Position numbers and translations under genes: made by a program. A DNA stretch of 33,772 nt from [Mycobacterium] zoologicum (lineage in GTDB: Bacteria > Actinomycetota > Actinomycetes > Mycobacteriales > Mycobacteriaceae). The stretch covers positions 1,861,098 through 1,894,869 of the forward strand of contig NZ_CP083985.1 of NCBI RefSeq assembly GCF_020172665.1, written 5' to 3'. Under the pieces are notes generated by a model. It was not told the DNA's origin and made no database searches. It saw only the letters and a list, made by a program, of their open reading frames with translations. Numbering within the stretch: the first letter of the stretch is position 1; each line of letters starts with the position of its first letter. Shown one piece after another: positions 4,225 through 15,244 of the stretch.

Positions 4225-5088
4225 TCACCCCAGCGCGGCGGCCAGCTGCCGCCACTGCTCCCGCGGGAAGGCATTCGGGTTCTCATCCAGTAGCTGCACG
4301 CACACGTGGTCGGCCCCGGCGTCCCGGTGCTCGGCGATCCGGGCGACGACGTCCTGTGGGCTGCGCCAGGCGATGATCGCGTCGAACAACCGATCGCTGA
4401 CTTGCGCGATGTCGTCTTCGGAGAACCCTGAGCGCAGCAGATTGTTGGCGTAGTTGGGCAACCCGAGGTAGGTCTTGAGCCAGCCGGTGCCGATCGCGCG
4501 GGCCTGCTCGCGGTCGGCGCACAGGATCGCGGTCTGCTCGGGTGCCAGCAGCGGCCCGGTGCCCAGCTGCTCGCGGGCGTACCGGGTGTGTTCGGGGGTG
4601 GTCAGGTAGGGGTGGGCGCCGCGGCTGCGGTCGGCGGCCAGCCGCAGCATCTTCGGGCCGAGTGCGGCCAGCACCCGGGACTGCACCGGAACGGGCTTCT
4701 CGGCGGCATCCAGGCCATCGAGGAAGGTGCTCATCGCCCGCAACGGCCGGCGGTACCGCCCGGGATCGCCGGCGTCGATCAGCGGGGCGTGGCTGACGCC
4801 GATCCCCATCAGGAACCGGTCACCGTGCTTGGCGGCCAGCGCCGCGAAAGACGCCGCCACATCGGCCGGGGTGTGCATCCACAGGTTCAGGATGCCGGTG
4901 GCGATCACCGTGTTTCGGGTCGCGGCCAGCAGATTGCCGACCGCGTCGAACACCGGCCCGCCCACATCGGGAATCCACAGCGCGCTGTAGCCCAGCTCCT
5001 CGCACTCGGCGGCCGCGTCGGCGGCTTCGCCCTGGTCGCCATAGCGCAGCGGCGCACTCCAGATACCGACACCCGAGATGTTCACCAT
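4225..5088 (-). CDS. LLM-class F420-dependent oxidoreductase
   Basis: This 287-residue member of the luciferase-like monooxygenase (TIM-barrel) family probably uses coenzyme F420, as most mycobacterial relatives do. It resembles the TIGR03620 (MSMEG_4141) subgroup. Visible family segments are GVGIWSAPLRYGD at the N-terminus, ALWIPDVGG, the LMGIGVSHAP core, LGPKMLRLAADRSRGAHPYL, and GADHVCVQLL near the end. The substrate is unknown. The ATG at 5088 is chosen because upstream sequence runs into the SURF1 gene's end and loses family similarity. It follows SURF1 by 35 bases on the same strand and could be the last gene of a ptkA-ptpA-SURF1 operon. It meets the fadD8-like gene end to end. Confidence 0.85.
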   Translation of the reverse strand: MVNISGVGIWSAPLRYGDQGEAADAAAECEELGYSALWIPDVGGPVFDAVGNLLAATRNTVIATGILNLWMHTPADVAASFAALAAKHGDRFLMGIGVSHAPLIDAGDPGRYRRPLRAMSTFLDGLDAAEKPVPVQSRVLAALGPKMLRLAADRSRGAHPYLTTPEHTRYAREQLGTGPLLAPEQTAILCADREQARAIGTGWLKTYLGLPNYANNLLRSGFSEDDIAQVSDRLFDAIIAWRSPQDVVARIAEHRDAGADHVCVQLLDENPNAFPREQWRQLAAALG

Positions 5089-5123
5089 GGCCCCAGGATG
5101 GCACAGCCCGCGCAACCGGTGTG

Positions 5124-5960
5124 CTAGCGGCGCCGTCCGTACCGATCGGCGAGCTTCTGCTCGACCGTCATCGGCGGTGCCGGCTCGTCGGCCGCGGTCC
5201 CGCCCTCGGCTTCGGAGCGCTCCGCGCGGCGGGCCCGCAGCTCGGCGAACGCGAAGTAGCCCAGGCCGATAGGCGCCAGGATTCCGAATGCGATCCACTG
5301 GATTCCGTAGGACAAGAACGGCCCGGCGTCGCGGCGCGGCAGTGCGATCACACCCAGCCCGCCCGGTTGGTCATCGACCAACTGTAGGTAGGAACCGGTC
5401 AAAGCCACCTTGGTCAACGCCGCGATCTGATCGGTGTTGATCGAGTAGACCTGATGAAAACCGTTCTCGGTGAAGGGATTCTTGCCCGGAACCGCCGGTT
5501 GCGAGTCCCGCAGCCGGGCGGTGACGGTGACCTCGTCGGCCGGTGGTGTGGGTATCTCCGGTATGCGGGTGCCGCCGTCGTCGGTGCGCACGAAGCCCCG
5601 GTTCACCAGCACCGTGGGCCCGCCGGTGACCGCGAACGGTGTCAGAACCTCATAGGCCGGGACTCCGTCGATCACTCGCAGGCGCGCCAGCACCTGCGCC
5701 TCGGGCAGGTAGTGGCCGCGCGCGGTCACCGGCCGCCACTGCTCCTCCGGTGCCGACGAATCCTGATGGGCCAGAAGCGTTGTCACCGGCACGGGTTCGG
5801 CAGTCAGGGCGTGTTCGAGTTGGCTGTTGGCCCGCGACGTGGTGGTGTTCTTGCCCAACTGCCACGGCGCCAGCACGGTGAAGCACAGATACGCGAAGGC
5901 CAGCACCACCGCCGCCAGAGCCAGCCAGCTCGGACGCAGCAGGAACGCCAGCCGGCGCAT
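5124..5960 (-). CDS. SURF1 family cytochrome oxidase biogenesis protein
   Basis: This is a 278-residue membrane protein of the SURF1/Shy1 family, equivalent by synteny to Rv2235. It has the family topology: one transmembrane helix near residues 11-31, a periplasmic domain with WRPVTARGHYL and VLVNRGFVR, and a second helix near 213-236 starting at GIQWIAFG. SURF1 proteins assist insertion of heme a into cytochrome c oxidase. The C-terminal tail is charged and cytoplasmic. The ATG overlaps the ptpA stop by one base (TGATG), so it is coupled to the phosphatase gene. Confidence 0.92.
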   Translation of the reverse strand: MRRLAFLLRPSWLALAAVVLAFAYLCFTVLAPWQLGKNTTTSRANSQLEHALTAEPVPVTTLLAHQDSSAPEEQWRPVTARGHYLPEAQVLARLRVIDGVPAYEVLTPFAVTGGPTVLVNRGFVRTDDGGTRIPEIPTPPADEVTVTARLRDSQPAVPGKNPFTENGFHQVYSINTDQIAALTKVALTGSYLQLVDDQPGGLGVIALPRRDAGPFLSYGIQWIAFGILAPIGLGYFAFAELRARRAERSEAEGGTAADEPAPPMTVEQKLADRYGRRR

Positions 5961-10133: not shown

Positions 10134-10709
10134 TCACTCGTGCAGGTGCACCCGTTCACCGCCGGCGCCGAAGATCATGATCGCCTCGGCCGGGCCGTCG
10201 ACCGCGCCGAACCAGTGCGGCGTCCAGGTGGAGAACTCGACGGCCTCGCCCGGCTCGATCAGGAAGTCCTCCTCGCCCAGCACCAATCGGAGCCGGCCGG
10301 ACAGCAGGTACATCCATTCGTGGCCCTCGTGCACCGGCAGCTCCGCCGGTCGGCGGCGCCGCACACCGACCCGGATCTTGAAGGCGTGCAGGCCGCCGGC
10401 CGGGCCGTGCCGGGTCAGCGGCCAGTAGGTGATGCCGTGGCGAGTCTGGGACGCCCCCCGAACCCGCGGATCCGGCTGCTGGGGGGCGCGCAGCAGCTCA
10501 TCGGTGCTGACCGAGAGCGCTTGGGCCAACCGGGGCAGGTGATCGAGCGCCAGCCGCCGCTTGCCGGATTCCAGCCGGCTCAGCGTCGACAGGTCGATGC
10601 GGGCTCGGTCGGCCACCTCCTGCAACGTCAGGCCCTGCTGGGTGCGCAACTCACGTAACCGTCGTCGCACCCGCAGCTCGACGCCGGCCTCGTCGACATT
10701 TGCCTGCAT
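10134..10709 (-). CDS. XRE-family regulator with C-terminal cupin
   Basis: This is a 191-residue transcription factor. A helix-turn-helix spans about 17-72 (TLQEVADRARIDLSTLSRLESG), and a cupin-2 sensor domain spans about 105-180 (HEGHEWMYLLSGRL, EPGEAVEFSTWTPHWFGA). XRE-cupin proteins bind small ligands. E. coli SutR (YdcN), a sulfur-utilisation regulator, has the same architecture. It is the third gene after cysK and cysE on this strand, 37 bases behind cysE. Its start codon lies inside a TTGCC-N5-GGCAA-N5-CTTGCC site also found in the cysK/flavoprotein divergent region, so it probably controls itself and those genes. No Shine-Dalgarno or -10 is seen at its start, so it is likely read from the cysK-cysE transcript. 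The ligand is unknown. Confidence 0.85.
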   Translation of the reverse strand: MQANVDEAGVELRVRRRLRELRTQQGLTLQEVADRARIDLSTLSRLESGKRRLALDHLPRLAQALSVSTDELLRAPQQPDPRVRGASQTRHGITYWPLTRHGPAGGLHAFKIRVGVRRRRPAELPVHEGHEWMYLLSGRLRLVLGEEDFLIEPGEAVEFSTWTPHWFGAVDGPAEAIMIFGAGGERVHLHE

Positions 10710-10725
10710 GGCAAGCCAGCTTGCC
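10700..10725. promoter_or_regulatory. Operator copy 1 at the xre start
   Basis: TTGCC (10700-10704), five bases, GGCAA (10710-10714), five bases, CTTGCC (10720-10725). The half-sites repeat every 10 bases, one helical turn, so they lie on one DNA face. The site overlaps the ATG of the XRE-cupin gene, as expected for autoregulation. The identical layout recurs at 12435-12460. Confidence 0.75.
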
Positions 10726-10746
10726 AGCTGGTTGTGGGCCGTGCAA

Positions 10747-11331
10747 TCAGATGTACATGGCAGGGTCGATATAGCTCGTCGGATCTACAAGGGGTTCGCG
10801 CTGATTCGCGTTGCGGGCGCGCACCACTGCGGGAATGCCGGTGGCGATCGAATTCGGCGGCACGTCATGGGTGACCACCGAGTTGGCGCCCACCGCCGAA
10901 TCGTCGCCGATGTGTAGGGGCCCGAGCACCTTCGCGCCGGCGCCGATGGTCACCCGATCGCCGACCGTCGGGTGGCGCTTGCCGTGGTTCAGCGAACGGC
11001 CGCCCAGCGTCACGCCGTGGTAGAGCATCACGTCATCGCCGATCTCGGTGGTCTCGCCGATCACCACGCCCATCCCGTGGTCGATGAAGAACCGCTTGCC
11101 GATGGTCGCGCCCGGGTGGATCTCGATGCCGGTGACCAAGCGCGTCGCCTGCGACAGCAGACGGGCGGTGCCACGCAGCGCCGGCCGGGACCAGAGCCGG
11201 TGCGCCACGCGGTAGGACCAGATGGCGTGCAGACCCGAATAGACCAGTGCGTTCTCCAGGTCGCCACGCGCCGCCGGATCGTGGGCCCGCGCATTACGCA
11301 GATCGTCGCGGACAGCGGACAGCAGACTCAT
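10747..11331 (-). CDS. cysE: Serine O-acetyltransferase
   Basis: This 194-residue enzyme transfers acetyl from acetyl-CoA to serine, giving O-acetylserine for cysteine synthesis. It has the short N-terminal helical region and the left-handed beta-helix of hexapeptide repeats. Catalytic motifs are [12 protein letters not shown] and [12 protein letters not shown]. The chain ends in Ile (MYI). A C-terminal Ile is what inserts into the CysK active site in the cysteine synthase complex. It is somewhat shorter than M. tuberculosis CysE because the C-terminal tail is reduced. It begins 8 bases after the cysK stop, so the two are one unit. Feedback inhibition by cysteine is usual for the family. Confidence 0.93.
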
Positions 11332-11339
11332 GGGTGTGA

Positions 11340-12275
11340 TTATTCCCTGATGTGCTCGAACAGCGGCGTCGAGATGTAGCGTTCGCCGAAATCGGGGGCG
11401 ATCACCACGATGAGCTTGCCGGCGTTGGCCGGCCGTTTCGCCAATTCGAGTGCGGCCCAGACGTTTGCACCCGTGGAGATTCCACCGAGAATGCCCTCCT
11501 CGGTCCCGAGCGCACGCGCGACTCGCAGGGCGTCGTCGGAGGCGACATCGATGATCTCGTCGTAGACGTTGCGATCGAGCACCTCGGGCACGAAGTTGGG
11601 CCCGAGGCCCTGCAGCCCGTGCGGCCCGGGTTTGCCGCCGTTGAGAATGGCGGAGTCTTTCGGTTCGACGCCGATGATGCTCACTTCGGGCTTGTGGGCC
11701 TTGAGGCCGTGACCCACACCGGTCAGTGTTCCGCCGGTGCCGATCCCGGCGACGAAGAAGTCGACGGCGCCGGCGGTGTCCGACCAGATCTCCTCGGCCG
11801 TCGTCGTCGCATGGATCTGCGGATTGGCGGGGTTGGCGAACTGATCGGCCGCGACGGCGTTGCGGGTTTCGGCGATGATCGCCTTGGCCTTGGCCACCGC
11901 ACCCGACATGCCCTCGGCACCGGGCGTCAACACGATCTCGGCGCCGAAGGCCCGCAGCATCACCCGGCGCTCGGTGGACATGGTGTCGGGCATGGTGAGG
12001 ATGACCTTGTAGCCACGTGCGGCACCCACCATCGCCAGCGCGATACCGGTGTTGCCGCTGGTCGCCTCGACGATCGTCCCGCCGGGCCGCAGTTCGCCGG
12101 ATTGCTCGGCGGCGTCGATGATGGCCACCCCGATGCGGTCCTTGACACTGTTGGCCGGGTTGTAGAACTCGAGCTTGACCACCACCTCGGCGCCGAGGCC
12201 GTCGGTCAACCGGTTGAGCCGGACGAGCGGCGTGTGCCCGACCAGCTCGGTGACGTTGTCGTAGATCCTGTGCAT
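11340..12275 (-). CDS. cysK: O-acetylserine sulfhydrylase (cysteine synthase A)
   Basis: This 311-residue PLP enzyme makes cysteine from O-acetylserine and sulfide. It has the PLP lysine in [11 protein letters not shown] (Lys45), the substrate loop TSGNTG (72-77), the phosphate-binding GTGGT, and the C-terminal [13 protein letters not shown]. It has the size and sequence of the CysK1 type. M. tuberculosis keeps cysK1-cysE at a different locus (Rv2334-Rv2335), so this pair is either moved or an extra copy. An AAGGG ribosome site lies 6 bases before the ATG. It is divergent from a TrxB-like flavoprotein gene, with an XRE-type operator in the 217-base gap. Confidence 0.94.
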
Positions 12276-12434
12276 TAGGAGCCCTTATCTCTTGCTGCTC
12301 GTCCAGGGGTACGCGCTGCACCGGGTGGATCGCCCCGCCCCCGATGTTATGCGCCGCCCTCCGCGATGCGTCGCACAGCCCGGAGGAACTCGAAGCCGAC
12401 CGTGACCCGAGCAAGCGCCGGCCCGTCTCGAAAT

Positions 12435-12460
12435 TTGCCAGTATGGCAAAGGAGCTTGCC
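12435..12460. promoter_or_regulatory. Operator copy 2 in the cysK/flavoprotein divergent region
   Basis: TTGCC (12435-12439), N5, GGCAA (12445-12449), N5, CTTGCC (12455-12460). Its inner part extends to a 7-base palindrome, TTTGCCA-GTA-TGGCAAA (12434-12450). It has the same three half-sites and spacing as the site at the start of the XRE-cupin gene. It ends 20 to 32 bases before the possible flavoprotein starts and about 160 bases upstream of cysK, so it could control both directions. Confidence 0.75.
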
Positions 12461-12492
12461 GAATTCTGGACGGGGACCGCATGCTCGGGTGC

Positions 12493-13443
12493 ATGACCGA
12501 CAGCTGGGATTGCATCGTGGTGGGTGGCGGAGCGGCCGGGCTCAGCGCCGGTTTGGTGTTGGGCCGGGCGCGACGCAAGACTCTGCTGATCGACGCGGGG
12601 GAGCAGAGCAATCTGGCCGCGCACGGCATCGGCGGCCTGCTGGGCCACGACGGTCGCCCGCCGGAGGAGTTGTACGCGCGCGGCCGGGGTGAGCTCGCGA
12701 CCTACGGCGTCGCGATTCGCAGCGGCGCGGTGTCCGATATCGGGCGGGTGGGAGAGGATTTCGTCGTGCACCTGACAGGTGGAACCGTCGAGCGGACCCG
12801 CCGGGTGTTGCTGGCCACCGGGATGAGCTATTCGCCGCCGGATCTGCCCGGCGTCGACAAGCTATGGGGGCGTTCGGTTTTCCACTGCCCGTTCTGCCAC
12901 GGGTGGGAGGTTGCCGATCAGCCGCTGGCGGTGTTGGGCCGCGGCGACCGAGCCGTGCACCAGGCGCTGCTGCTGCGGTGCTGGAGTGCGGACGTCGTGG
13001 TGCTCACCGACGGTCCCGCAGAATTCGGCGACGCCGACTCCGCCCGGTTGGCGAGTGCCGGCATCCGGGTCGACGAGCGGCCGGTCACCGCGCTGGACGG
13101 GGCCGACGGTCAGCTGTCGGCGGTGGTGTTCGCCGACGGCAGCCGGCTGCCGCGGCGCGGACTGCTGGCCGGTGTGACCATGTGGCAGCGTGACCGGCTG
13201 GCCGAACGGCTCGGCGTGGCCGCGGCGGCGCCCACCCCGGTCGCCGAAGACCCCGTGGGTGTCGATCCGTTATGCCGGACCTCGATTCCCGGGGTGTTCG
13301 CCGCCGGGGACATCACCGGGGAGATGCCGCAGGTCGCCGCGGCGATCGCGGCGGGTTCGCGGGCCGCGGCGGCGGTGGTGCAGAGCCTGGCGGCCCAGGA
13401 CTACGGCCTGCCGCTGCCCGAGCGCGGAAGCGCTGCGCGATGA
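12493..13443 (+). CDS. TrxB-like FAD/NAD(P)-dependent (di)thiol oxidoreductase
   Basis: This 316-residue flavoprotein is of the thioredoxin-reductase-like family. It has FAD-binding VVGGGAAG (residues 9-16), a redox CPFCHGWE motif (Cys132, Cys135), a second nucleotide-binding region VLGRGDRA (147-154), and the FAD-contacting GVFAAGDIT near the end. True thioredoxin reductases usually have CATC. The CxxCHG form is found in FAD-dependent dithiol oxidases such as GliT and HlmI and in uncharacterised actinobacterial relatives. The next gene, a methyltransferase, overlaps it as ATGA. In some actinobacteria these two activities occur as one fused protein. An in-frame ATG at 12481, with a GGGG-type ribosome site, is an alternative start. 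The function on a low-molecular-weight thiol is inferred. Confidence 0.87.
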
Positions 13444-14087
13444 CCGAGTCGGTGCGGGACGCTCGCGAGTTCTGGGATGAGTTCTACGCCGGTGACCGGC
13501 GGGTATGGAGCGGGAAAGTGAACCTCCACCTCGCCGAGGTCGCCGCCGACCTCGCTCCGGGCCGCGCCCTGGACCTGGGCTGCGGTGAGGGCGCCGACGC
13601 CATCTGGCTGGCCGAAGACGGCTGGCAGGTGGTCGCCGTCGACGTCTCTGCCAACGCGTTGGACCGGGCTCGGGCCGCGGCCGAACAGCACCAGGTCGCA
13701 GCACGCATCCGCTTCGAGCGCCACGACCTGTCCGCCGGCTTCCCCGACGGCCGCTATGACCTGGTGTCGGCGCAGTTCCTGCATTCTCCGGCGCGGCTGG
13801 ACCGCGACGCGGTGCTGCGCCGCGCCGCCGAGGCCGTGGCGGTCGGAGGGCGGCTGCTGATCGTCGACCACGGTGCCGCGCCGCCGTGGGCCGGCGACCA
13901 CGACCACGAGCATCAGTTCGACACGATCGACGAGGTGCTGGCCGGCCTGCGGCTCGAAGACGGGCAGTGGGAACGGTTGCGCGCCGGGGCCGTCGAGCGC
14001 GACGCCGTCGGACCCGATGGCCAGGCCGCCACCCTGACCGACAACGTGATCCTGCTGCGCCGGCTGGATGGTCACGCAGCATCGTGA
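13440..14087 (+). CDS. Class I SAM-dependent methyltransferase
   Basis: This is a 215-residue methyltransferase with the SAM-binding motif I ALDLGCGEGADAIWLA (about 43-58), the acidic motif II VVAVDVS, a DLVSAQF strand, and GGRLLIVDHGA. It has the general form of TehB/thiol-methyltransferase-like enzymes. The substrate is unknown. Its ATG overlaps the flavoprotein stop (ATGA), so the pair is translationally coupled. In context, S-methylation of a thiol or detoxification of a chalcogen is possible but unproven. The last 16 bases overlap the convergent oxygenase gene. An open frame extends upstream to 13272 but lies inside the flavoprotein gene. Confidence 0.88.
   Translation: MTESVRDAREFWDEFYAGDRRVWSGKVNLHLAEVAADLAPGRALDLGCGEGADAIWLAEDGWQVVAVDVSANALDRARAAAEQHQVAARIRFERHDLSAGFPDGRYDLVSAQFLHSPARLDRDAVLRRAAEAVAVGGRLLIVDHGAAPPWAGDHDHEHQFDTIDEVLAGLRLEDGQWERLRAGAVERDAVGPDGQAATLTDNVILLRRLDGHAAS

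Positions 14088-14850: not shown

Positions 14851-15244
<394 letters not shown>

Follow-up and report, generated by a model that had tools for sequence, protein, structure and literature searches.

A conserved three-half-site operator at an XRE-cupin regulator gene and a flavoprotein–methyltransferase gene pair of [Mycobacterium] zoologicum

A stretch of 33,772 nucleotides of [Mycobacterium] zoologicum (contig NZ_CP083985.1, positions 1,861,098 to 1,894,869; hereafter the window) carries two copies of a motif of three half-sites, one at the gene of an XRE-cupin transcriptional regulator and one upstream of a gene pair encoding a thioredoxin-reductase-like flavoprotein and a class I S-adenosylmethionine (SAM)-dependent methyltransferase. 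Across its relatives the motif behaves as a real and old operator, to which the regulator would bind, and it very probably controls both the regulator gene and the flavoprotein–methyltransferase pair in this genome. The features of the locus, in window coordinates, are as follows (HTH, helix-turn-helix; FAD, flavin adenine dinucleotide; NADPH, reduced nicotinamide adenine dinucleotide phosphate).

10134..10709, minus strand: XRE-cupin transcriptional regulator (HTH_3 + Cupin_2), probably leaderless; the start codon (10707-10709) lies within operator copy 1
10700..10725, unstranded: operator copy 1, three half-sites TTGCC-N5-GGCAA-N6-TTGCC, overlapping the −10-like CAAGCT and the XRE-cupin ATG
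10747..11331, minus strand: cysE, serine O-acetyltransferase (TIGR01172, 227.8 bits, cut-off 210.65), within a lineage-specific insertion
11340..12275, minus strand: cysK, cysteine synthase A (TIGR01139, 448 bits, cut-off 350.95), within the insertion
12435..12460, unstranded: operator copy 2, 5' of the flavoprotein gene; its minus strand resembles a relic of the XRE-cupin 5' end with the ATG lost and the half-sites kept
12480..12485, plus strand: candidate −10 CATGCT of a leaderless flavoprotein transcript, proposed from position only, by analogy with the regulator promoters
12493..13443, plus strand: thioredoxin-reductase-like flavoprotein with CPFCHG, HlmI/DepH-like, without NADPH motifs
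13440..14087, plus strand: class I SAM-dependent methyltransferase; its gene shares bases with the flavoprotein stop codon, and in many relatives the two proteins are fused

The initial annotation had described these five genes and the motif at two places among them, and both were confirmed in the sequence: the 26-mers at 10700-10725 and 12435-12460 both match exactly. Matches with up to three mismatches averaged 0.35 in shuffled sequence, and two matches were reached in 3 of 100 shuffles. The exact pattern TTGCC-N5-GGCAA-N6-TTGCC is not common in the genome; it occurs only at these two sites in 4,425,202 bases (reversed control, 0), and even the two-half-site palindrome TTGCCN5GGCAA is found genome-wide only there. 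Because the middle half-site belongs to both, the three make up two overlapping palindromes, and the outer half-site accepts G or C at base 4. Further weak operators in the genome were rejected, as a tolerance of three mismatches gave 46 matches, both sites included, against 71 for the reversed control. The same holds for two-half-site variants (TTGSC/GSCAA), with 18 rows against 26 in the control.

The proposal that the half-sites are under selection was borne out, since the operator is conserved in relatives far above the reversed controls. Among 198 genomes of the genus, the strict pattern TTGCCN5GGCAAN6TTGCC was found at 50 sites in 40 genomes (control, 3) and a variant with a TTGGCA end at 97 sites in 93 genomes (control, 0), so that 121 of the 198 carry one or the other. 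The strict pattern occurs in 130 of 397 genomes of the order (4 control matches), and a class-wide draw yielded the strict or variant pattern in 27 of 296 genomes (control, 1). The 147 operator rows of the genus (50 + 97), minus the window's second site, gave 146 classified sites; four duplicates were dropped. Order-wide sites were fetched in part, repeated sites of one genus being sampled, and distances from operator to gene were estimated from alignment starts.

Almost all genus sites (142/146) are either at the start of an XRE-cupin gene or close to a gene for a SAM-methyltransferase. The XRE-cupin start accounts for 120 of them, as the initial annotation had expected in tying the motif to this gene; there the regulator faces a flavoprotein gene in 70 cases, a methyltransferase gene directly in 46 and another gene in 4 (cysKE in three). 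A second, unlinked methyltransferase gene is located downstream of 14 sites and methyltransferase paralogues downstream of 6, and two more sites are near methyltransferase genes (L154, about 190 bases away; L188, flanked by two, of which one was assigned by eye). The remaining four (L042, L045, L051, L155) have no such partner, which is about the number that the controls predict. Another 125 sites were examined, most of them in other genera and families, and 117 of these adjoin a regulator, flavoprotein or methyltransferase gene; of the other eight, L214 precedes a methyltransferase gene, the site at L402 2081 is near a luciferase-type monooxygenase-like gene (by eye), and the rest are chance-like or have no clear gene. 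In 22 regulator loci of other genera (L227-L248, with L226 and matches without a locus set aside), the best site has no mismatch in 10, one in 5, two in 4, three in 2 and five in 1. Regulator and flavoprotein or methyltransferase genes are direct neighbours in most of 80 XRE-cupin loci. The motif is thus conserved at the promoters of orthologous XRE-cupin, flavoprotein and methyltransferase genes, and the conserved unit is an XRE-cupin gene facing a flavoprotein gene, a methyltransferase gene or both. One operator (L392 2023) has a regulator relative on one side and on the other a gene that by eye resembles those of major facilitator superfamily (MFS) transporters, and one regulator branch (L228, L229, L234) has the variant operator TTGCAGTTTC[GA]GCAA...TTTGTC and no flavoprotein or methyltransferase gene in the 3.5 kb examined. 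No description of the operator or the regulator was found in the open-access literature, subscription papers being mostly outside this coverage.

The regulator consists of an XRE-type HTH domain (HTH_3, 54.1 bits) and a cupin domain (Cupin_2, 45.9 bits), and it is 100% identical in Mycolicibacter sp. MYC017, the nearest named record. SutR of E. coli is likewise an XRE-cupin regulator. PuuR of E. coli has the same combination of HTH and cupin, and autoregulation is plausible; an identity with PuuR was rejected (28.3 of 211 bits with the NCBIfam model).

The position of the operator suggests how it may act. A −10-like NANNNT ending at −9 from the regulator start codon was present in 80 of 80 regulator loci vs 153 of 3200 background positions. 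Its A lies within a half-site and its T outside, and the start codon itself (78 ATG, 2 GTG) lies inside the operator. By eye, a comparable spacing separates the start of the divergent gene from a GGCAAGCT or like element of its own. Because the operator overlaps the −10 element and the start codon and the divergent gene is similarly spaced, the regulator could block both leaderless promoters. The flavoprotein of the window most likely starts at 12493 (MTDSWDC), not at 12481; relatives begin at the equivalent point, their own starts having been chosen by rule.

A single cysteine locus comprising all five genes was not supported. Between the regulator and the flavoprotein/methyltransferase genes, cysK-cysE is found in 6 of the 80 XRE-cupin loci, all of Mycolicibacter, and additionally in L388 (seven insertion loci: L061-063, L066, L072, L074 and L388, with L061 representing a close relative of the window). 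Of the 146 genus sites, 3 had CysK or CysE encoded within the stretch that was fetched, and CysK adjoins 1 of the 125 further sites. The insertion loci group together in the tree, with a modest support of 0.774 for the whole group and an imperfect rooting. All seven retain the flavoprotein-side operator (three exactly, four with one mismatch) and all seven have lost the ATG in it, while the half-sites remain. In the window, the 40 bases past operator copy 2 align with the start of the living regulator gene at a score matched by 0.15% of 2000 shuffles, and copy 2 thus looks like an eroded regulator 5' end; the corresponding score was matched by 0.8% of shuffles in L388 and by 10.7%, which is not significant, in L066. 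Judging from these comparisons, cysK-cysE is a late insertion into the promoter in some Mycolicibacter. The window has two operators because cysK-cysE landed inside an ancestral bidirectional promoter and split it, each half retaining one copy. The inserted cysK is the sole close copy in the genome (next match, 45% identity) and starts about 160 bases from operator copy 2.

The resemblance of copy 2 to a duplicated and decayed regulator 5' end would also suit a local repeat of recent origin that has no regulatory role. This explanation, already disfavoured, is hardly credible, as all seven insertion loci keep the flavoprotein-side operator with at most one mismatch despite the lost ATG, and the conservation of the operator spans the order and the class. 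By the same comparisons the operator long predates the insertion, and most of its sites are at genes for the regulator, the flavoprotein or the methyltransferase. A cysteine regulon was consequently rejected as the core function, since cysKE came late and the operator is not conserved at cysteine genes across relatives. The broader idea of a thiol/sulfur regulon survives in part: the flavoprotein/methyltransferase pair fits thiol chemistry, whereas the cysteine genes do not form its core.

Sulfur-linked genes entered the promoter region twice, and the sulfur theme therefore stays alive. In five sister Mycolicibacter loci (L064, L065, L068, L069 and L071), a YeiH-family transporter gene (PF03601, 283 to 290 bits) heads the operon at about 4640-5860 in place of cysK-cysE; no flavoprotein was found beside it in L065, L068 and L069. 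The main rival to the explanation that we prefer (below) is accordingly a regulon for physiological sulfur stress caused by sulfide, sulfite, persulfide or cysteine, close to the view of the initial annotation. The methyltransferase would make methylated sulfide, CysK would fix sulfide, YeiH would remove sulfite and the flavoprotein would oxidise small thiols. This is consistent with cysK-cysE downstream of the operator in 7 Mycolicibacter genomes, with the five YeiH-family genes, YeiH conferring sulfite resistance in Salmonella according to PMC12880088, and with a single case in which 28 bases separate an exact operator from a molybdopterin gene resembling that of sulfite oxidase (PF00174; L155 1475-1528). 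However, the cysKE, YeiH and sulfite genes are rare and lineage-bound, the usual partners being methyltransferases and flavoproteins, with MFS transporters on two plasmids; the TIGR00698 model for YeiH stays under its cut-off (124.3 of 232.6 bits, L065), and L155 may be among the few chance sites. We therefore consider this rival unlikely, though the least so of the alternatives.

The flavoprotein resembles FAD-dependent dithiol oxidases and is predicted to oxidise dithiols. In the structural comparison it has a thioredoxin-reductase-like fold with HlmI and DepH nearest, the uncharacterised structures 3fbs and 4fk1 being equally near, and it aligns CPFCHG with the CPYCHG of HlmI and DepH. The redox-active CxxC is kept in 138 of 138 distinct relatives, and the NADPH motifs GGGDSA or HRR occur in 0 of the 138, while the genome's own TrxB carries both (173 matches from loci up to L325, reduced to 138 by dropping repeats and proteins under 250 residues). 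The lack of TrxB-type NADPH motifs is a defining trait of FAD-dependent dithiol oxidases. Identity with the thioredoxin reductase TrxB was rejected (TIGR01292, 99.3 bits vs a cut-off of 343.45; 409.6 for the true TrxB of the genome).

The methyltransferase has a class I SAM-methyltransferase fold, and in relatives, Micromonospora among them, it often forms one protein with the flavoprotein (counted from stop-to-stop open reading frames in fetched stretches, many of which end at the stretch edge). The top structural match, at 22% identity, is 4nec, whose title names the Ecm18-type reaction and which we take to be Ecm18; TmtA (5egp), presumably the same gliotoxin methyltransferase as GtmA, matches at 14% identity. 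Several unrelated methyltransferases lie within 1 Z of the top match, and with such rows counted as tied the comparison singled out no substrate class. The pair might act on other small toxic molecules, heterocyclic or phenolic, which would be N- or O-methylated, with the flavoprotein performing an unrelated redox step. We hold this to be improbable, since the recurring fusion to a CxxC flavoprotein and the invariant CxxC point to thiol chemistry. A metalloid detoxification, with TehB-like methylation of tellurite, selenite or arsenic and the flavoprotein as reductase, is very unlikely. A looser Pfam TehB model passed, but the NCBIfam TehB models remain far under their cut-offs (47.2/218, 45.6/303 and 39.2/219.5 bits) and the flavoprotein is without NADPH motifs.

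We favour, with about even confidence, an inducible defence against thiol or disulfide compounds that follows the logic of GliT and GtmA, the locus being a copy, now split, of a control unit that is old in actinobacteria. The XRE-cupin repressor would bind the operator over the −10 element of its own leaderless promoter and at the divergent promoter, and thereby silence itself and the flavoprotein/methyltransferase operon, in many genomes also unlinked methyltransferase genes. A thiol or disulfide compound bound by the cupin domain would lift the repression. The flavoprotein would then close toxic dithiols to disulfides via CxxC and FAD, and the methyltransferase would cap the remaining thiols with methyl groups, as in GliT + GtmA or Ecm17 + Ecm18.

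Parts of this scheme resemble known systems. HlmI (holomycin), DepH (romidepsin) and GliT (gliotoxin) belong to natural-product pathways (PMC11317636, PMC3826145); the window flavoprotein shares with them the fold and the nearest solved structures, its CPFCHG corresponding to CPYCHG in HlmI and DepH, but its gene lies opposite one for an XRE-cupin regulator and in relatives often forms a fusion with the methyltransferase gene. DnoP (PA4170) of Pseudomonas aeruginosa is a dithiol oxidase in a toxin non-producer and serves xenobiotic defence; unlike the system proposed here, it is induced by zinc starvation, and the main text of that report contains neither the word XRE nor methyltransferase (PMC11317636). 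In Aspergillus fumigatus, GliT and the S-methyltransferase GtmA jointly remove dithiol gliotoxin, the producer relying on re-oxidation, S-methylation and efflux (PMC5356443); these are, however, fungal and separate enzymes. In echinomycin formation, the FAD oxidoreductase Ecm17 is the proposed disulfide former and the SAM-methyltransferase Ecm18 then acts on the disulfide (PMC4052310), but this is biosynthetic tailoring. Dithiolopyrrolones, in turn, are prodrugs that are reduced inside cells (PMC12288471).

Several observations weigh against the defence explanation. The cysKE, YeiH and sulfite-oxidase-like genes at few sites fit a physiological sulfur signal equally. At 46 of the 120 genus XRE-cupin sites the regulator is opposite the methyltransferase rather than the flavoprotein, and for only 3 of those 46 did the stretch that was fetched contain a flavoprotein elsewhere; oxidation is therefore not indispensable. 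The fold of mycobacterial TrxB trails DepH by only 3 Z units and HlmI by 1.2. The METTL6 and Rv0560c structures tie with 4nec, and a class I fold does not fix S-methylation. Among distant regulators, the best operator of L246 has five mismatches, no operator was found at up to three mismatches in L438 and L439, and L440 and L441 show only a four-mismatch site near the regulator.

Regulator relatives were also matched in 86 plasmid records, of which six regions were opened. On the L437 plasmid the regulator faces flavoprotein and thioredoxin genes (operator with one mismatch), and on L439 methyltransferase and MFS transporter genes. A Streptomyces plasmid (L440 1-7511) carries a cassette of regulator, flavoprotein and MFS transporter genes between two Tn3-family transposase genes. 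The regulator faces a different NAD(P)H-dependent oxidoreductase gene on a Tsukamurella plasmid (L438) and neither a flavoprotein nor a methyltransferase gene on L441. On the Streptomyces clavuligerus megaplasmid (L436 4233-5480) it is divergent from a methyltransferase gene (4233-4817), with an operator of two mismatches. Mono- and di-S-methylated holomycin intermediates occur in an hlmI mutant, according to a review (PMC3826145). As a prediction only, the L436 methyltransferase would make the S-methylated holomycin intermediates of S. clavuligerus, the holomycin producer. More tentatively than for the window, we suggest that actinobacteria might share an inducible defence against thiol/disulfide antibiotics, in which an XRE-cupin sensor with a three-half-site operator would control a dithiol oxidase together with at least one S-methyltransferase, frequently as a fused two-step enzyme, with plasmid relatives beside an exporter and with the L436 enzyme behind those intermediates. 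No description of such a defence was found in the open-access literature.

These results give a regulator, a precise operator and target enzymes to a pair that databases name by domain only (in fused form, bifunctional NAD(P)/FAD-dependent oxidoreductase/class I SAM-dependent methyltransferase). The specificity of the operator is high enough to predict unlinked target genes across an order, and it makes the handling of dithiol and disulfide natural products by actinobacteria testable. The locus also exemplifies how two genes can enter a bidirectional promoter together and leave an operator on each half.

Next to the locus, a 2-oxoglutarate-Fe(II) oxygenase gene (PF09859; 14072-14797, minus strand) is convergent with the methyltransferase gene, their coding ends sharing 16 bases. 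It is followed by the RNase P RNA (bacterial class A, Rfam RF00010, 293.8 bits) at 14856-15243 on the plus strand.

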